From positions 1 to 35,381 of the forward strand of contig LJVB01000005.1 of assembly GCA_001304215.1 (NCBI GenBank): DNA of 35,381 nucleotides. Reading direction: 5' to 3'. The first letter of the stretch is position 1. The number at the start of each line of letters is the position of its first letter. The position numbers were made by a program, and so were the translations under genes. Of this stretch, positions 18,962 through 28,137 are shown piece after piece. This stretch comes from Acidithiobacillales bacterium SM1_46 (lineage in GTDB: Bacteria; Pseudomonadota; Gammaproteobacteria; Acidiferrobacterales; Sulfurifustaceae). The notes beneath the pieces are model-generated. The model was not told the origin of the DNA. It searched no databases and was given only the letters and a program-made list of their open reading frames with translations.

Positions 18962-20410
18962 TCATCGAGCCACGCTTCCACCACCGTCGACGGAGCTTGC
19001 GCCATGCGCGATGGCCGCCCCTTCGGAGACGGCGGCTGCGGCGCCCATGGTCCCATCGCCGAACGAGCGTTCGCCTCGGGCAGGCGGCGCTAGCAACCGA
19101 CCGCGCAGGGAGTTGGTCATCGCTGCCGTGATTCTTGCGCCCACAAACTCGCCGATCTGCGCGACATCGCCGGCGTCAAGATTTACCACGCGATTGTTTT
19201 CGGTGCGTCCACAGAGTTCCGAAGGGCGGCGGCGCGAGGGACCTTCGATGAGGATGCGCTGAACCGATCCGACCATCTGCCGGCTGATCGCCTGCGCGTG
19301 GCTGTTGTTGAGCTGCTGGAGTTGGTGCAAACGCTCGTCCGTCACTTCCTTGGGCAACATGCCCGCGATGTCCGCAGCGGGCGTACCCGGTCGCGGGCTG
19401 AAGACAAAACTGTACGAGCTGTCGAACCGCACTTCTTCCAATAACCGCAAGGTCGCCTTAAAGTCTTGTTCGGTTTCGCCGGGGAAACCGACGATGAAAT
19501 CGGTCGTAATCGAGATGTCCGGACGAACGACGCGCAGTTTGCGCAACCGCGACTTGTACTCAAGCACGGTATGACCGCGTTTCATCAGCGCGAGGATACG
19601 GTCCGAACCGCTCTGCACCGGCAGGTGTAGGTGATTGGCAAGCTTGTCGATCTCACCGTAGGCACGAATCAGATTGTCACCGAACTCCATCGGATGCGAT
19701 GTCATGAAGCGCAACCGCCCAATGCCGTCAACCTCGGCAAGATATCGCAACAGCGTGGCGAGATCCGCATACGTGCCGTCGTGGCGCAAGCCACGATAGG
19801 CATTGACGTTCTGACCAAGCAACGTCACTTCACGCACACCGCGCTCCGCGAGTCCCACGACCTCGGCAATTACGTCGTCGAATGCCCGCGAGAATTCCTC
19901 GCCTCGCGTGTACGGCACGACACAGTAACTGCAGTACTTGCTGCAGCCCTCCATAATTGACACGAACGCGCGCACGCCCTCGACCCGCGGCTCCGGCATG
20001 CGATCGAATTTCTCCATCTCCGGGAACGACACATCGACCACCGGGCGGCGCGTGCTGAGTGCCTGATCGACCAGTTGCGGCAACCGGTGCAGCGTCTGGG
20101 GGCCAAACACGAGATCGACCAGCGGGGCGCGGCGCACCAGCGCCGCGCCTTCCTGGCTGGCGACGCAACCGCCCACGCCGATCACAATGTCCGGGCGTGC
20201 TGTCTTAAGCTCCCGCCAGTACCCAAGTTGGGTAAAAACCTTTTCCTGAGCCCTTTCGCGGATGGAGCAGGTATTAAGCAGCAGAACGTCGGCCTCAGAG
20301 GGGTCTTCAGTGATCTCCAGGCCGTGTGAGGCCGCCAGCACGTCCGCCATTCGGGCGGAATCGTACTCGTTCATTTGGCAGCCAAAGGTCTTGATGTGGA
20401 GTTTGCGCAC
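18962..20410 (-). CDS. miaB: tRNA-2-methylthio-N6-isopentenyladenosine synthase MiaB
   Basis: MiaB is a radical-SAM methylthiotransferase that adds the 2-methylthio group to i6A37 in tRNAs reading UNN codons. The N-terminal domain has the auxiliary-cluster cysteines C11 ([12 protein letters not shown]), C48 (LNTCSIRE) and C82 ([10 protein letters not shown]). The radical-SAM cluster is C156, C160 and C163 ([17 protein letters not shown]). A TRAM domain follows near 375-440, ending SLRGRLLA. The protein then runs on for about 41 Gly/Ala/Ser-rich residues (442-482), beyond the usual family end. The start is GTG at 20410 ([11 protein letters not shown]). It heads the ybeZ-ybeY-ybeX-lnt group. 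Confidence 0.97.
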
Positions 20411-20489
20411 TATGCGCCCGGACGACAGGGGGCGCCTAATCTACCCGCGCCCCGGCCAAAAGAAAAGCCAACCCGTAGAATTTCCCTTC

Positions 20490-20528
20490 AAAATCAAAGA
20501 AAAAGGCGAGTGGAGTGACCCACTCGCC
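20490..20528 (-). terminator. Strong intrinsic terminator upstream of miaB
   Basis: On the minus strand a perfect 9-bp stem, GGCGAGTGG with CCACTCGCC (20528-20520 and 20513-20505), closes a 6-base loop and is followed at once by TTTTTCTTTGATTTT. This is a textbook intrinsic terminator. It lies 80-120 bases before the miaB start and about 380 bases after the 5'-nucleotidase stop, so it must end something in between: an RNA starting in the gap, read-through from the nucleotidase, or an attenuated miaB leader. Confidence 0.85.
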
Positions 20529-20690
20529 TGCAACATGCGCGTCGTCGTTCGGGTACAGCACGTTTGTTACATCTTCCCGACCGGCGACCACACAACCCTA
20601 GAAAAACACAACTCACACTGGAGGACTGAAGGAGACACCCACTATCACCCGGGGACCGCCCAGTTCGGGCGACAACCGGGAAATTAAAGA
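20490..20690 (-). ncRNA. Candidate structured small RNA or leader between the nucleotidase and miaB
   Basis: This stretch has no convincing reading frame yet folds strongly on the minus strand. At 20680-20648 a nested hairpin pairs CCCGG with CCGGG and, inside it, CGCCC with GGGCG. Further on, AACGTGC pairs with GCGCATGTT (about 20567-20533, one G-T pair). The terminator at 20528-20490 ends it. A TTTAAT hexamer just before the first hairpin could be a -10 box, which would give an RNA of about 190 bases, but the -35 is poor. It does not match what I know of 6S RNA, tmRNA, RNase P RNA or SRP RNA. It may instead be a miaB attenuator leader. Confidence 0.4.
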
Positions 20691-20707
20691 AAGCACGCAA
20701 ATCCGAA

Positions 20708-20762
20708 GGAAAAATGAGCCGCGGCATGGGGCGGGGTGCCCAAACATTCCCTGCATCCGCGG
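20708..20762 (-). terminator. Possible terminator after the 5'-nucleotidase
   Basis: On the minus strand CCGCGG (20762-20757) can pair with CCGCGG (20724-20719), helped by GGG/CCC pairs inside, and CTCATTTTTCC follows. The stem is interrupted and the loop is large, so this is weaker than the terminator at 20490-20528. Its position, 150-200 bases after the nucleotidase stop, would suit the end of the addB-addA-nucleotidase transcript. Confidence 0.35.
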
Positions 20763-20863
20763 CGACGTCCTTGTCCTCAGTCTGGCTCACCGCAAGCAAT
20801 CCTCAAGCGCCGATATTGTGCAGCGAAGGCTGCCAGACCAATCAGGTCTATTACTTTCAATAG
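20714..20863 (+). CDS. Possible 49-residue small protein (weak)
   Basis: This is the only plus-strand frame in the gap with a good ribosome binding site: AAGGA stands five bases before the ATG. It would encode MSRGMGRGAQTFPASAATSL and so on, ending QTNQVYYFQ, with two cysteines near the end (LCSEGC). No family is recognised, there is no signal peptide or membrane segment, and no plus-strand promoter or terminator is evident. It overlaps the possible minus-strand terminator at 20708-20762. It is listed because the 500-base gap has no other candidate protein; it may well be chance. Confidence 0.12.
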   Translation: MSRGMGRGAQTFPASAATSLSSVWLTASNPQAPILCSEGCQTNQVYYFQ

Positions 20864-20910: not shown

Positions 20911-21813
20911 TCAACTTTCATTTGCCACGCCGTAGGGAACATGGCCGGTCGCGACGTGTGGCGCCGCCGAAACACAGTGACGCTGCTGGTCATCGAAGAA
21001 GATATCGGCCTGAAAAGCCTTCAGAAAGGCCCCCTTGTCCATACCACCAAGGAACAACGCCTCGTCAATGCGGATGTTCCAGGCACGCAGCGTGCGAATG
21101 ACACGCTCGTGTGCCGGCGCGCCGCGCGCGGTCACCAGCGCGGTTCGGAGAGGTGAACGGCTCGGCGGGAACTCCGCCTGGATACCATGTAACGCGGAGA
21201 GGAATCCGCGGAACGGACCGCCCGGCAGCGGATCGGTGGCGGCCACGCGCTCGGAATGGTTGAACGCCTCCAAGCCGCGCCGCTTGTACACACGCTCGGC
21301 CGCATCCGAGAACAACACCGCATCGCCGTCGAACGCGATCCGCAGCGCATCGCCCTCGGGCAGGAGGCCGCGTCGCGGCATCAGGGTGGCCGCCGCAAAA
21401 CCGGCTTCCAGTGCATCCCCGACATCCTCGGCGTTCGCTGACAAGAATAACTGGGCTCCAAACGGCTCGACATAGCGAAACGGGCTGGCGCCTCCCGCGA
21501 AGGCGGCGCGCGAAATCTCCAGACCGTAGTGCGATACCGAGTTGAAAACGCGCAGACCCGTGTCGGCGCTGTTGCGTGAAATCAGAATTACTTCAACCCG
21601 CTCTCGCAGCGGGGCTAGCCCGTTCAGGGCAAGCAGCTTCTTCACCACCGGGAACGCAGCACCTGGCTCGAGCGGATCATTCTCGTGCTCGATCTGATAG
21701 CGGCAATACGCCTCAACGCCCTGCTCGGTAAATACCCGGTGGCTGTCCTCGAGATCAAACAGCGCGCGGGAGGAAATGGCGACAACCAGCTTCTGTTCTG
21801 CAGACGACGTCAT
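20911..21813 (-). CDS. 5'-nucleotidase of the cN-I-like family (PF06189 type)
   Basis: The 300-residue protein from ATG at 21813 (MTSSAEQKLVVAISSRALFD) matches bacterial homologues of cytosolic 5'-nucleotidase I. Typical segments are ISSRALFDLEDSHRVF, VILISRNSADTGLRVFNSV, RAAFAGGASPFRY, FDGDAVLFSDAAERVY and DEALFLGGMDKGAFLKAF. FDGD and the final FFDD are probably Mg-binding aspartate sites. It should dephosphorylate nucleoside 5'-monophosphates in the cytoplasm; substrate preference cannot be told. The frame opens 12 codons earlier at a TTG, but the family start fits the ATG. It follows the addA-like gene by 54 bases and may share its transcript, possibly to recycle nucleotides from DNA degradation (inference). 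Confidence 0.88.
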   Translation of the reverse strand: MTSSAEQKLVVAISSRALFDLEDSHRVFTEQGVEAYCRYQIEHENDPLEPGAAFPVVKKLLALNGLAPLRERVEVILISRNSADTGLRVFNSVSHYGLEISRAAFAGGASPFRYVEPFGAQLFLSANAEDVGDALEAGFAAATLMPRRGLLPEGDALRIAFDGDAVLFSDAAERVYKRRGLEAFNHSERVAATDPLPGGPFRGFLSALHGIQAEFPPSRSPLRTALVTARGAPAHERVIRTLRAWNIRIDEALFLGGMDKGAFLKAFQADIFFDDQQRHCVSAAPHVATGHVPYGVANES

Positions 21814-21867
21814 AAAGCCATTCTCGCGCCAAACACAACGGCGAGGCAAAAGGCACAGCCAGCAAAC

Positions 21868-24800
21868 CTAGTCACCAACCGCCGGCCACTCGCGCCAGGC
21901 ACCCAGCAGCGGAAAGTAGAGCCCGAGGCGGATCGGGCGCGCATCTAGCAAATACATTAGTCGCGCGTAGCGTGCCAATTGCGCCGCATAGCGCTGCTGC
22001 TCCCGGTCGAGAAACACATCCGGATCGCCGCCTTCATGCGTACCGGTCTTGTAGTCGATGATCCAGCGCACGCCGTCGCCATCGACGAACGTCCTGTCCA
22101 GCACCACGCTTACCAGTTCACCCTGGTCCACTCCGGTCAGGGCATATTCCGTCCGCGCCTCGCCGTGAGCGGAATCGAGAATCCAGCGACCGCGCGGATC
22201 GGTGAGCGCGTGGGTCAGCGCTTCGCTCACACGTTCGATCGCGGCACCGATCCGATCGGCGGGCACGCCCAGTTCGGCAAGGTTGCGCGCGAAAACAGGC
22301 GTCAGCGCGCGCACCCGCTCCTCGCTCCAGGCGGCGATACCTTCGCGCGCGAGGATCTCCAGCCAGCGATGCACCAGGCTGCCGACCGAGCGAATCGTCT
22401 CGCTCGCCCAGTCGAACGCCACGACCGTGCGGTCGCTGCGTACCGGCTCGGCGCGCTTGCGCCACGCCACCTGCGCCGGCGGCGCCGGTGTCCGCCAGGC
22501 ACTGGTCAGGCGCCGGATCGCCACGTTATCCGTGGCCGCTTCGTGCGTGGCAGTAACATGACGATGGGCTCCGCGAGCGAGTGCCCGCTCGAATTCACCC
22601 GCCGCCGCCGGCCACAATCGTGCCAACAGTGAGCGCGCAGGCGGCTCACGCAGCTCACGACCGCCCTCTTCGGTTTCCTCGATGGCGACCGCCCCTAACA
22701 GATGCAGGTGGCGAATGGCGCGAGTGCTCGCCACGTAGAGCAGCCGGGTATCCTCGAAGTCGGCCTGGATGCGCTCGTATCCGCCAAGGAAGTCATAGAC
22801 GGGGTCCTGCTTTTCGCCGCGTGCGCGCATCGGCGCGAGCAGCAGCTCGGCAACCGTCGCGCCGGCGCGCGCCATTTCGTGCCAGCGCAAGAGCGGCGCA
22901 TCCGCCGCACGCGGCTGGCGCCCAAGACCCGGCACGATCACGGTATCGAATTCGAGTCCCTTGGCCTTATGGACCGTCATTACCTGCAGGCGCTCGCCGG
23001 CATCGACATCTGGCGCCGCGTGCAGCTCGCCGACCTGTTGGTCGAGCAGCGCGAGATCGGCGAGATCACCGCCCTGCTCCAGCGTATCGAGCAGGTCGAA
23101 AAATGCGCGCGCGTCGGCAAGCGCGGCGGCGCCCGGCGCGCAGGCACTACCCCCGAGCGCGAGCCAGGTTCCTTCCACCAGCTGGCGTAGTGGCGCGCGG
23201 CGCTCGCGCTGGAGCGCCGCGGCCAGCACATCGCGCACACGCACAAGGCGCGCCTGCCCGTCATCGCTCAAGCGCGCAACGTGCGCATCATCCTGCATCA
23301 GAGTCCAGACCGCCGTGTCGCGATCTCGCGCGCACAGAGCATCGAGGTCGGCGAGCTGCAGTCCGCACCATGGCGCGCGCAGTACGGCGAGCCAGCTCAG
23401 GCGGTCGGCGCGGTGAACCAGCGCGCGAGTGAGCACGAGCAGATCCTGCACCACCGGCCGGCCACCGAGTGGCTCGATATCGATGGCGCGAAACGGTATG
23501 CCCGCGGCGCGCAGCCGCGGCACGATTTCCTCGAGGTGCGAGCGCGAGCGCACCAAAATGGCAATGGTCCGCTGCGCGGGATCGGCAAGCGCCGCCTGCA
23601 CCAGCGCCGCCACCTGCTCGGCCTCCGCCACGTGGTCCTTGTCGAAGAATGGATGCACCGTAACGGCCTGACCATGCAGGGCTCCATTGGCCGCGACCGA
23701 ATGCGCATGCGTCACGGCACCGAGCGCGATGTTCTCTTCCGCCGGGAAGGCAGTGGCGAACGCGCGGTTCACCCAATCGACGATGCCAGCCTGCGAACGA
23801 AAGTTCACTTCGAGTGCAAGTGGCGTGAGCCGCACGCTGCCCAGTCCCTGCGCGCGCGCCCGCAGATACAGGCCGACTTCGGCCTGGCGAAAGCGATATA
23901 TCGACTGCATCGGGTCACCGACCAGAAACAGCGTGCGCCCGTCATCCGGCTGCCAGCCGGCGGTCAGGCGCTCTAGCAGTTCGTACTGGCTGAGCGAGGT
24001 GTCCTGGAATTCATCGACCAGCAGGTGCGCGATGCGATAGTCGAGTAGCAGCGCAAGGTCACTCGGCGCCTCAGGTCGCCCGAGCGCTTCGAGCGCACTC
24101 CACGACACTTCGGTGAAGTCGACCTCGCCGTGCCGGGCGAACACCAGGCGCAGTTGCGCGACGGCGAGCGGCAGCAGCGCGCCGAGCGCCTCGATCAGCT
24201 GCCATTGGGCATCGGCGTAGTGCGGACCGGGCAGTGCCACCAGCGCGCGCAGGCGCCCGAGCAGCTCCGGCGCCTCGGCGAGTTGCGCGATCAGCGCTTC
24301 GAATTCGGCCTTGGCCGCGGCAAGCCTTGCCTTTTCTTTGCCCTTTGCGCTACTCGGCGGCGGAAATCCTTCGCTCCTTGTAACTCGCGCGCGCCAGGCA
24401 CCACCGTCGGTGGAGGTCGTCAGCAATCCGGCCAGCGCCTGCCACGCAGCAAGATTGCCGACACGGGGTGCGAGCAGCGCGACGCACTCCTCCCAGGCAA
24501 TCAGCGCGGAGTCACTGCCCGCGGCACGCAGGTTGGCCGTGGCCGCGCGCAACACGCCTAGCAGCGCCGCCGCCACGGCCGTCGGCAGCGCCGCGGCGGC
24601 TCGCGCGAGCTCATCCTCGATGGCATGGGTGAGCGCGGTTTCGAGCACCGCACGATGGCGACGCGGATCGTCGGGTGTCGCGAGGTGGCGCAACCACTGG
24701 TCGCGCCGCGCCAGCATGCTGGCAAGTAGCGACTCCACTTGCGGCAAATCATTGTCGAGATGTGCGAGCAGCCGCTCGACCGCAGGGGTCCAGTCGTGAT

Positions 24801-25296
24801 CCGCCTCGAGCAGCGCGAGCAGCTCGCGCGCCGCCTCGCGGTAGAGCGTCTCGCCCTGTTCGGTGATGCGCACCGCGCCGCCGGTGCGCGAGAGCACCGG
24901 CATCTGGCGGGTAAGGCCGGTGCACAAGGCATCGATGGTGCTGATCCGCAGCCGCTGCGGCTGGGCGAGCAGGTTCCAACCACGCTCGGCATCGCGCGCG
25001 AGCGCGGCACGCGCCAGCGCCACCATGCGCTGTTTGTGGGGCGCCTCGAGCTCGGCCCCCGTCGCGGCAGCGGCGAGCGCCTCGATGATGCGGCTTCGCA
25101 TCTCGGCCGCGGCCTTGCGCGTAAACGTGATGGCGAGTACTTCCTCCGGATGATCCACTCGCCCGAGCAGCACGAGATAACGGTTGGTGAGCAGCTCGGT
25201 CTTGCCGGAACCGGCCGGGGCCTGCACGATGAAGGAACGCGCCGCATCGAGCGCCGCCTCGCGCGCGTTCGTATCCGCCAGCCGCTCAGTACTCAT
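21868..25296 (-). CDS. AddA/RecB-like UvrD-family helicase-nuclease
   Basis: All superfamily 1 helicase motifs are readable in this 1142-residue protein: I (APAGSGKT, 26-33), Ia (AITFTRKAAAEMRSR), II (LLVDEFQDTS), III (FLVGDPMQSIYRFRQ), IV (LEVNFRSQAGIVDWV), V (LQVMTVHKAKGLEFD) and VI (LLYVASTRA). The C-terminal PD-(D/E)XK nuclease is present as WIIDYKTGTHEGG, followed by QQRYAAQLARYARLM. It should unwind and cut DNA ends for recombination repair, together with the AddB-like protein encoded just before it; the ATGA overlap suggests coupled translation. It resembles AddA/RexA more than RecB because the partner is AddB-like and no RecC or RecD is seen. Confidence 0.92.
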   Translation of the reverse strand: MSTERLADTNAREAALDAARSFIVQAPAGSGKTELLTNRYLVLLGRVDHPEEVLAITFTRKAAAEMRSRIIEALAAAATGAELEAPHKQRMVALARAALARDAERGWNLLAQPQRLRISTIDALCTGLTRQMPVLSRTGGAVRITEQGETLYREAARELLALLEADHDWTPAVERLLAHLDNDLPQVESLLASMLARRDQWLRHLATPDDPRRHRAVLETALTHAIEDELARAAAALPTAVAAALLGVLRAATANLRAAGSDSALIAWEECVALLAPRVGNLAAWQALAGLLTTSTDGGAWRARVTRSEGFPPPSSAKGKEKARLAAAKAEFEALIAQLAEAPELLGRLRALVALPGPHYADAQWQLIEALGALLPLAVAQLRLVFARHGEVDFTEVSWSALEALGRPEAPSDLALLLDYRIAHLLVDEFQDTSLSQYELLERLTAGWQPDDGRTLFLVGDPMQSIYRFRQAEVGLYLRARAQGLGSVRLTPLALEVNFRSQAGIVDWVNRAFATAFPAEENIALGAVTHAHSVAANGALHGQAVTVHPFFDKDHVAEAEQVAALVQAALADPAQRTIAILVRSRSHLEEIVPRLRAAGIPFRAIDIEPLGGRPVVQDLLVLTRALVHRADRLSWLAVLRAPWCGLQLADLDALCARDRDTAVWTLMQDDAHVARLSDDGQARLVRVRDVLAAALQRERRAPLRQLVEGTWLALGGSACAPGAAALADARAFFDLLDTLEQGGDLADLALLDQQVGELHAAPDVDAGERLQVMTVHKAKGLEFDTVIVPGLGRQPRAADAPLLRWHEMARAGATVAELLLAPMRARGEKQDPVYDFLGGYERIQADFEDTRLLYVASTRAIRHLHLLGAVAIEETEEGGRELREPPARSLLARLWPAAAGEFERALARGAHRHVTATHEAATDNVAIRRLTSAWRTPAPPAQVAWRKRAEPVRSDRTVVAFDWASETIRSVGSLVHRWLEILAREGIAAWSEERVRALTPVFARNLAELGVPADRIGAAIERVSEALTHALTDPRGRWILDSAHGEARTEYALTGVDQGELVSVVLDRTFVDGDGVRWIIDYKTGTHEGGDPDVFLDREQQRYAAQLARYARLMYLLDARPIRLGLYFPLLGAWREWPAVGD

Positions 25297-27974
25297 GCCG
25301 GCTCCCCAGGGAGCACATCGCCCCAGCGCGGATGCTCGTGCACGCGACAGAGCGGCTCGAGGTCACATTGCTCGCAGGTCTCGCGGCCATCGCGCGGGTC
25401 GACCGCGGCCGCGCCGGTGCGGAACGCTGCCGCCAGCGCCTCGAGCGTCGCGCGCCAGTCATTAAGGAGCGCCTCCCACGAACCGACGGTCGCGGCCTGC
25501 TTGTCGTCGGCAAGCGTGCCCACCGCCGGCAGCAAACCGCTTTCGTGCGCGAGGCCCCGAAAATCGCAGGCATCCGGGCGCAACCGCGCGTAGGCAAGCG
25601 CTGCTACCGTTCCCGGCGCGGCAATCGCATAGAGTGGCAGCTGCGGCTCGGCGGGACGCGCGCCATACCAGTCCTTCACGTGCGCGCGTCCGGTTTTGTA
25701 ATCGATGACCACCAATCCGCCGTCATCCATCTGATCAACCCGGTCGGCAATAACTTCGACGCGCAAACCGCCGACGCTGAGCGGTGCGCGCGTTTCGCTC
25801 GCACGCACCACGAATGGCCGGCGCTCGCGCTCGAGCGCTAGCCAGCGCAGTACCAGTGCCTCGAGGCGCTGTTGCTCGAGCGTCCGAAAGCGAGCCGTGA
25901 AAGTCTCGCGCCGCCGCGCAGCGAGCTTTTCGATCGCTCCCGCCACCGCCTGCGACACTTCGCGCGTGAGCTCAACTTCGCTCAGCGCCACCAGCCGCGC
26001 ATGACTACCGAGCTGCTGCCAGAACACACGCAAGGCATCGTGCAACAGAGTGCCGCGCGCTGCGGCATCGAGCCCGGGCTGCGGCTCGGCGAGCGCCTGG
26101 CAATCGAGGCGCACATGCGCAAATGCGCGAAACGGGCAGGCCGACTGATCGCGAAAGAGGCGCGTGCCTCCAGGCAGCTCCACGCCTTCCGTGAGCGCCG
26201 GCGCTTCGGCATCAATGAGCGTCTCCAGCTCACCCGCCACCTGCAGGCGTTCGGCCTCGTCCGGCATGCCTTGCAGAGCGAGTGCGGCCATTGTTGTCTC
26301 GGCAAGCCCGGTGATCAGCGGGCTAGCGCGCAGTACCTGCTCGCCATCGACACTGGCATGACTTAGCATCACCTCGCGAGCGCTGCCGAGCAGGCGCACG
26401 GTCGCGCGCCGTGCCACGGCGAGCTCGCGCTCCGCCGAGGAATGCGGCAGCCCGCGGGCGCGTTGCAGGCGAAGATCAAGAAACGGATTGGCCCGCGGGC
26501 TCGCCGGCCAGACGCTGTCGTCCAGTCCGCTCACCCAGAGATGATCGAACTCGAGACCGGCCGCCTCGAACAGGCCCAACACCTGCACCGGCACGTCCGC
26601 CGTGCGCGGCTCGAAGACGCGTTCGATCGCGAGTCGCCGCAGGGTCGCGACCGCAGCGACATAGTTGGACCGCCCGCTCACCGCATCGAGTGCTGCGAAC
26701 GTCACCAGCAGCTCGCGCCACGCTTCGAGCGTCTGATACTCGGCACTGTCCGGCGTGCGCGAACCTGGCCACCCGAGCAGCGCAAGCAGTTCGGCGAAAA
26801 TCTGTGACCAGGCGCTTGGCAACTGTCGCGGCGCGAGCCGGTCGATGACGGCGCGCCAGCGTCGCAGGCGCCCGGCCAGCTCAGGGCACGGGATCTCGTC
26901 GTCTGTTGCCAGCGCGAGCAGCCGGTGCGGCGTGGCACGGGTCTCCCCGATTCGCCGCAACCGCACGTCCAGCGCGGCGCGGCGCGGCAATTCCTCCATG
27001 GCGCCAAAAAACGGTGAGCGCAAAAAGCTGCCGGCCTGCGCGAGCGGCAGTGGCTCGCCACCGAGCTCGAGCGCCAGCAGTGCTGCGTGCACCAGCGGAA
27101 AATCCGCGAGCGGCAGACCAAGCGAGAGATGGTAGGGACGCCGCGCGGTATTGGCATCGGGGGCATCCGGCCGGATCGCGCCGGGGGCGAGCGCTTCATC
27201 CAGCGCGCGGACCACGAGCGCCCGGCGCTCGCCAAGCCCGGGCACGACGATGCCGATCCGAACCGACGAATCGGCTTCGAGTCGCCGCCGCGCCCAAGTC
27301 GCCGCGATCGCGAACTCCTCACGCGCGTCGCGACAGGCGAGGCGGTGCATGGCCGGCGCAGGCGGCGGCGCGGGTTCATCCATCACTTGTACGCCGGTTC
27401 CCCGCAACACCTCCATGTGTCTCGCCTGCTGGGGCGTCAGCTCATCGAAACCCGCCAGCAGCACGCGCTCCGGCGGCGCCAACGCTCCGGATGCAAAGCC
27501 CTGCGAAACAACATCGGGCAAGGTCGCTGCATCGATCCAGTGGCGGTCGCTACACGTGCGCTCAAAATCTTGCACCCAATGCGCAAAGGCGAGCAGATCT
27601 TCGTTCGCCGCTTTCGCGACATCGGGTAGCGGCAGGCGCCACGCATGCATCAGGTTCCAGGCATCCTGCGCCAGCGCTGCTGCAGCGTAGGGCTGCAGCA
27701 AGTCATTCTGCCAGCGTGAATCGAGGATGACCGACTCCCACAGCCGCAGGGCCTGCGTGTCGTCCAGCAGACTGCGTGCCTCGGACGCAGCCAGCGCCTG
27801 CCAATGGCGCGCAATCCAGTCCGGCCAGGCAAGGACTTGCGGACTTGGCCAGGCCTTGTGGCCGCGCGCGAGCATTCGCTCGCCGTAGCGGCGGGCGAGA
27901 TCCCGGGCGAGCCGCCGCCCGGCGGTGATCAGGGTTGCGCCGGCCTGCAGCGCCTCAAAAACGGTCTCTTCCAT
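25293..27974 (-). CDS. AddB-like PD-(D/E)XK nuclease (TIGR03623-type probable DNA repair protein)
   Basis: At 893 residues this matches the proteobacterial family of about 900 residues found beside UvrD-like helicases and distantly related to AddB. The N-terminus (ATLITAGRRLARDLARRYGE) is helicase-like but has no Walker A motif. The C-terminal nuclease shows GGLVVIDYKTGRAHV and PQLPLYA. Four cysteines fit the AddB-type iron-sulfur staple: one in QSACPFRAFAHVRL and three in C867-x2-C870-x5-C876 near the end. With the AddA-like partner it probably forms a two-subunit, RecBCD-like end-processing enzyme. The ATG at 27974 starts MEETVFEALQAG; the tRNA-Met gene ends 86 bases upstream. Confidence 0.88.
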   Translation of the reverse strand: MEETVFEALQAGATLITAGRRLARDLARRYGERMLARGHKAWPSPQVLAWPDWIARHWQALAASEARSLLDDTQALRLWESVILDSRWQNDLLQPYAAAALAQDAWNLMHAWRLPLPDVAKAANEDLLAFAHWVQDFERTCSDRHWIDAATLPDVVSQGFASGALAPPERVLLAGFDELTPQQARHMEVLRGTGVQVMDEPAPPPAPAMHRLACRDAREEFAIAATWARRRLEADSSVRIGIVVPGLGERRALVVRALDEALAPGAIRPDAPDANTARRPYHLSLGLPLADFPLVHAALLALELGGEPLPLAQAGSFLRSPFFGAMEELPRRAALDVRLRRIGETRATPHRLLALATDDEIPCPELAGRLRRWRAVIDRLAPRQLPSAWSQIFAELLALLGWPGSRTPDSAEYQTLEAWRELLVTFAALDAVSGRSNYVAAVATLRRLAIERVFEPRTADVPVQVLGLFEAAGLEFDHLWVSGLDDSVWPASPRANPFLDLRLQRARGLPHSSAERELAVARRATVRLLGSAREVMLSHASVDGEQVLRASPLITGLAETTMAALALQGMPDEAERLQVAGELETLIDAEAPALTEGVELPGGTRLFRDQSACPFRAFAHVRLDCQALAEPQPGLDAAARGTLLHDALRVFWQQLGSHARLVALSEVELTREVSQAVAGAIEKLAARRRETFTARFRTLEQQRLEALVLRWLALERERRPFVVRASETRAPLSVGGLRVEVIADRVDQMDDGGLVVIDYKTGRAHVKDWYGARPAEPQLPLYAIAAPGTVAALAYARLRPDACDFRGLAHESGLLPAVGTLADDKQAATVGSWEALLNDWRATLEALAAAFRTGAAAVDPRDGRETCEQCDLEPLCRVHEHPRWGDVLPGEPA

Positions 27975-28060: not shown

Positions 28061-28137
28061 TGGTGGCTAGGGGCGGGATCGAACCGCCGACCTCAGCATT
28101 ATGAGTGCCGCGCTCTAACCAGCTGAGCTACCTAGCC
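28061..28137 (-). tRNA. tRNA-Met (CAT), elongator
   Basis: The 77-base gene folds as a full cloverleaf: acceptor GGCTAGG with CCTAGCC, D arm CTCA...GAGC, anticodon stem CGGCA with TGCTG around loop CTCATAA (anticodon CAT), and T arm GGCGG-TTCGATC-CCGCC. The CCA end is encoded. It resembles E. coli elongator tRNA-Met in the acceptor and D arm. It lacks the C4-G69 and C5-G68 pairs expected of a lysidine-modified tRNA-Ile(CAT), and it is not an initiator because pair 1-72 (G-C) is intact. Confidence 0.96.

Follow-up and report, generated by a model that had tools for sequence, protein, structure and literature searches.

A probable ORF-less derivative of a small membrane-protein transcription unit upstream of miaB in Acidithiobacillales bacterium SM1_46

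What is encoded in the 500 bases in front of miaB that hold no known gene? This question was raised by the window analyzed in this study, namely the whole stretch of 35,381 nt at positions 1 to 35,381 of contig LJVB01000005.1 from Acidithiobacillales bacterium SM1_46, an uncultured relative of sulfur-oxidizing bacteria. The gap runs on the minus strand from the end of the 5'-nucleotidase ORF at 20911 to the GTG start codon of the tRNA-modification gene miaB at 20410 (miaB, 18962-20410; TIGR01574, E 3.1e-174), and a first-pass annotation had noted its 500 bases. That annotation interpreted the segment 20490-20690 as a protein-free, unannotated RNA of about 190 bases or as a conditional miaB leader, and considered it unlike 6S, tmRNA, RNase P RNA or SRP RNA. 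The last point was borne out by the Rfam scan that it had proposed: in the window, only two tRNAs, both outside the gap, reached the gathering score, no family did so in the gap, and a permissive threshold yielded sub-threshold matches there that were far under gathering, with nothing credible among them. In five relatives' loci, tRNAs alone reached gathering. The segment is indeed without a conserved ORF, but open frames are present in the gap, one of 101 codons at 20494-20799 and one of 47 codons that begins within the leader hairpin described below; no Pfam match was obtained for either. A nucleotide search of the gap against 59 other genomes gave chance-level similarity only, and there was no congener of the window's genome among the genomes searched. 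The kinship of the gap to relatives is visible only through alignment by place and through the profile.

In most relatives of the family, the DNA before miaB consists of a conserved promoter, a covarying 5'UTR hairpin, a small ORF, an intrinsic terminator, and a separate miaB promoter. Of the 20 family genomes, 18 gave a miaB locus, that of the window included. At 13 of the other 17, an ORF of 51-54 aa lies no more than 560 nt 5' of miaB; G008 and G009, two of the four that are left, have the small ORF farther upstream on the same contig. When 24 small-ORF loci, including those of paralogues, were scanned with a strict finder, 12 showed an intrinsic terminator 3' of the ORF. Some loci have a particular layout. 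In G016 (L122), an inverted-repeat insert, seen by eye, separates miaB from the terminator of the unit with the small ORF, and in G007, GC-rich palindrome-like repeats extend 5' of miaB up to the contig end (L114), the small-ORF unit being on another contig (G007:C89), apart from this miaB locus. In the window, the stretch 20911-27974 (-), which separates tRNA-Met (28061-28137) from the unit in front of miaB, contains AddB-like (TIGR03623), AddA-like helicase, and 5'-nucleotidase genes. Six loci of relatives (L112, L113, L115, L118, L126, L141) are without these genes at this place, and tRNA-Met is located there a few hundred bases 5' of the small-ORF unit.

The small ORF encodes a membrane protein of about 53 aa that begins MLKLSFWIGTPS and, in the three proteins examined, shows a hydropathy peak of 2.6-3.0 (17-residue mean) near residues 28-44. 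It matches no Pfam or NCBIfam family: in Pfam, hits were obtained for a paralogue only, none of them reaching the curated cut-off, NCBIfam gave one far sub-threshold hit, PHROGs gave only weak hits (E 0.009 and 0.04), and a PDB profile search gave nothing significant. The differences at codon positions 1, 2, and 3 (944, 480, and 1535 in 12 sequences) indicate that the small ORF of the relatives evolves as a protein. Profile searches detected it in 17 of the 20 family genomes and, among the 37 genomes from the rest of the order, in 3. In a class sample of 369 genomes there were 2 with the ORF, and these belong to the family. A second copy is present in four genomes; in the one examined (G004, L149:668-1888), the paralogue is located in a cluster of tiny membrane-protein genes, flanked by DUF5670 and DUF3185 and downstream of a glycine-zipper protein, which hints at an envelope or stress role. 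Full-text literature searches, as far as the texts they covered extend, found nothing relevant to the small-ORF/miaB locus. The analysis brings to light a small membrane-protein family whose promoter is conserved and whose 5'UTR element covaries, so far found in a single order of Gammaproteobacteria.

The counterpart of this unit in the window was recognized by a covariance model of the leader (R1), which was built from 11 relatives with the window left out and whose E-values the tool itself describes as rough. When the 20 family genomes were searched, the top match in the window's own genome was the one at 20822-20692 (-), in syntenic position, with a score of 29.0 bits (E 7.8e-5) compared with 16.2 bits for the runner-up; on the window alone its E-value was 1.1e-6. 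The score is weak beside those of the relatives (29 bits versus 70-143 for the model rows), and the match stops where the relatives have the start codon of the small ORF. At E < 0.01, 16 of the 20 family genomes match; the small ORF follows at once in 15 of them, but not in the window. Over 57 genomes of the order, for which stricter filters were used, none outside the family passed E 0.05; in the distant members L145-L147, the promoter block is shared by eye and R1 is not passed. These data indicate that the promoter and 5' leader of the window (20692-20822, -) are homologous to those of the relatives' small membrane-protein gene.

Downstream of the leader, no ORF of 51-54 aa follows, and the stretch standing in its place (20530-20691, -) has no detectable trace of it. 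A frameshift-tolerant profile alignment scored 18.9 in the window versus 18.1 (sd 3.3) in 60 shuffles. Pairwise alignment against the same 10 relatives gave z values of 1.1 to 7.8 for the leader versus -1.6 to -0.1 for the ORF stretch. The nhmmer profile of the small ORF, which recognizes the most divergent family homologue tested (L148) at E 1.3e-9, likewise did not detect a decayed copy in the window, and this candidate was rejected. No copy was found at E <= 10 elsewhere in the genome, whose assembly (2.6 Mb in 182 contigs) is 91% complete.

As read from the alignment, the block that the relatives share 5' of the small ORF begins with a box resembling ATCGG, followed by a -35 of the TTG type, a spacer that is 17 nt long in most cases, and an element resembling a -10. 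The putative promoter of the window (20779-20814, -) is composed of an ATCGG box (20814-20810), TTGAGG (20806-20801), a 16-nt spacer where the relatives have 17 nt, and CAGACT (20784-20779), with four bases missing between the box and the -35. The conservation of the block in the relatives' alignments suggests that this promoter may be active, with a predicted start near 20772. A strict pattern of the block, used in a search for a shared regulon, occurred at the small-ORF locus only, in 4 of 20 genomes; as it misses the window's own site because of the deletion there, it says little on a shared regulon.

The leader hairpin of the window (20718-20763, -) reads GCCGCGG(AU)...(AU)GCCGCGGC, with GCAGGGAAUG in an internal loop (20754-20745) and an inner GGGC/GCCC stem. 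The covarying 5'UTR hairpin of the relatives carries a AGGGAAUG-like loop, which resembles AGGGAAUGA in most of them, and is missing in three genomes (L139, L140, L148). Among the 11 relatives, eight of which are from one genus (g5), both sides changed in 5 of 11 pairs, a count reached by 1 of 500 shuffles and compared with 0-3 in slid controls, and pairing was seen in 94.1% of cells, compared with 44-63% in slid controls. In a 19-row model-fitted alignment including the window, the values were 5 of 11 pairs and 93.3%. In the window, 9 of the 11 model pairs form and the outer stem has six pairs, one of them C-G versus U-A in most relatives; alone, the hairpin is no stabler than shuffles (z -0.53). 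In the relatives, such a hairpin may control translation of the small ORF. RNAalifold also paired bases within columns 2-27 of alignment A2, in the promoter; these pairs were set aside as upstream of the expected start. A further hairpin that it proposed, of 4 pairs and covering the ribosome-binding site (columns 130-141), is weak. The covariation that the first-pass annotation had recommended looking for is found in this leader hairpin, which is a different structure from the two stems which it had described.

These two stems both lie within the stretch standing in place of the small ORF, which is without similarity to the relatives. The nested GC-rich hairpin (20648-20680, -) folds as previously claimed and is moderately more stable than shuffles (-19.3 kcal/mol, z -2.38, 2 of 200 as good), with no counterpart seen in relatives. 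The second stem, earlier placed at about 20567-20533, exists at about 20530-20570 (-), and its stability is ordinary (-9.8 kcal/mol, z -0.63). Taken as a whole, the 201-nt segment folds only slightly better than its shuffles (z -1.82, equalled by 11 of 200), and a 276-nt stretch close to the predicted transcript gave z -0.60. The terminator at 20489-20529 (-) is exceptional by comparison with shuffles (-19.6 kcal/mol, z -6.0, 0 of 200); its stem (20529-20504) has a loop of 4 and 11 pairs, rather than the 9 reported earlier with the same T-rich tail. Its position is that of the unit's terminator in the relatives, where it closes the small-protein gene.

As the terminator ends 94 bases 5' of the miaB start on the same strand, it could belong to an attenuator, in which an alternative fold switches the terminator and miaB is transcribed from upstream. 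Against this stands a putative miaB promoter (20438-20471, -) downstream of the terminator, with TAGATT at 20443-20438 and an uncertain -35, either TTGGCT (20471-20466) or TTTTCT (20466-20461). The -10 element TA[GA]ATT occurs 33-41 nt 5' of the start in 13 of 18 family loci, the window included, with the pattern having been picked after inspection and a slightly wider one hitting 5.9% of mononucleotide shuffles. Moreover, the longest complementarity to the terminator arms that could serve as an antiterminator was 7, which was reached by 95% and 42% of shuffles, so that no mutually exclusive fold was found among the contiguous pairings tested, and the equivalent terminator of the relatives comes after the small ORF. 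Since the conserved -10 element follows the terminator and antiterminator pairing does not exceed chance, the conditional leader proposed by the first-pass annotation is unlikely, and miaB most likely has a promoter of its own a short way downstream. This case shows that a terminator in front of a gene does not have to be an attenuator.

Taken together, these results make it probable that the segment is the 3' part of a short, self-contained transcription unit that descended from the relatives' 51-54-aa membrane-protein unit and is ORF-less here, the small ORF presumably having been lost or replaced in the window's lineage. RNA polymerase would start from the conserved promoter at about 20814-20779, near 20772, transcribe the leader hairpin and then the ORF-less body, and stop at the 11-bp terminator with an end near 20500, so that the transcript would be about 275 nt long; miaB would also be insulated by this terminator. 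As the protein gene is gone, with promoter, leader hairpin, and stop signal kept, any RNA made would be non-coding. The earlier suggestion of an RNA of about 190 bases is supported in outline, but the RNA would start earlier and be longer, and its counterpart in the relatives is an mRNA. The weak R1 match, the 16-nt spacer, the four missing bases, and the ordinary stability of the leader hairpin count against this explanation, and with one genome alone to show it, the ORF-less state may reflect a local accident or a fault of the assembly.

The retention of a leader whose ORF is undetectable points either to selection on the leader or to replacement of the ORF in one event, and the data do not separate the two. 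If selection was responsible, the mRNA unit may have turned into a functional small non-coding RNA that acts via the leader or the new GC-rich hairpin; after the coding part disappeared, selection would have maintained the promoter, the terminator, and the covarying hairpin of the leader, including the conserved GCAGGGAAUG loop. The leader kept after ORF loss hints at such a function, as do the maintenance of the hairpin with C-G in place of the usual U-A and the stability of the nested hairpin. One-event replacement gives the same pattern, however, conservation has no congener to be compared with among the genomes searched, and the whole segment is not unusually stable, which leaves a functional RNA possible but rather unlikely. 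The idea of a CsrA sponge was rejected, as the GGA count (5 versus a mean of 3.7) is near chance. It is still less probable that the unit codes for a small, now unrelated protein, for example by the 47-codon frame from the hairpin or a 27-codon frame from GTG 20696. A start codon does lie a few bases from the relatives' start, and M-L-S-L resembles M-L-K-L by eye and after the fact; however, there is no Pfam match, similarity to the small-protein profile is not beyond shuffles, and the relatives' ribosome-binding site (GAGGAGGA) is lost in the window. We also give little credence to an assembly fault, by which the organism would have the small ORF and the contig would be chimeric or wrong over about 160 bases: the fragmented, incomplete assembly and the lack of an ORF copy elsewhere in it would agree with such a fault, but the leader, terminator, and miaB promoter stand on one contig in the right order and spacing.

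Under the preferred explanation, that of an ORF-less derivative unit, the window offers a natural example of a unit that has lost its protein and retained its other parts. If the ORF-less RNA works, a transition from mRNA to small RNA could be traced here; if not, the unit is an ordinary relic.

Concerning similarity to known systems, the closest are the relatives' own small membrane-protein units before miaB, such as those of Sulfuricaulis sp. S40-5 (L031) and Acidiferrobacteraceae Centralia_MAG_68 (L049), with which the window shares the place, the promoter block, the leader hairpin with its loop motif, the terminator, and the separate miaB promoter. The window differs from them in having no detectable small ORF, and the genome of L049, unlike the window, is without the leader hairpin. 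Attenuator leaders with an intrinsic terminator are a general kind of regulatory leader, and the window resembles them in having a terminator 5' of a gene on the same strand, but it differs in the conserved miaB promoter element after the terminator and in that an antiterminator was not found. Small genes for stress or membrane proteins are known to carry structured 5' leaders, and there are also RNAs with a dual function, such as SgrS. The unit of the window resembles these in organization: it is short, its 5' part is structured, it ends in an intrinsic terminator, and in the relatives it contains a small ORF.
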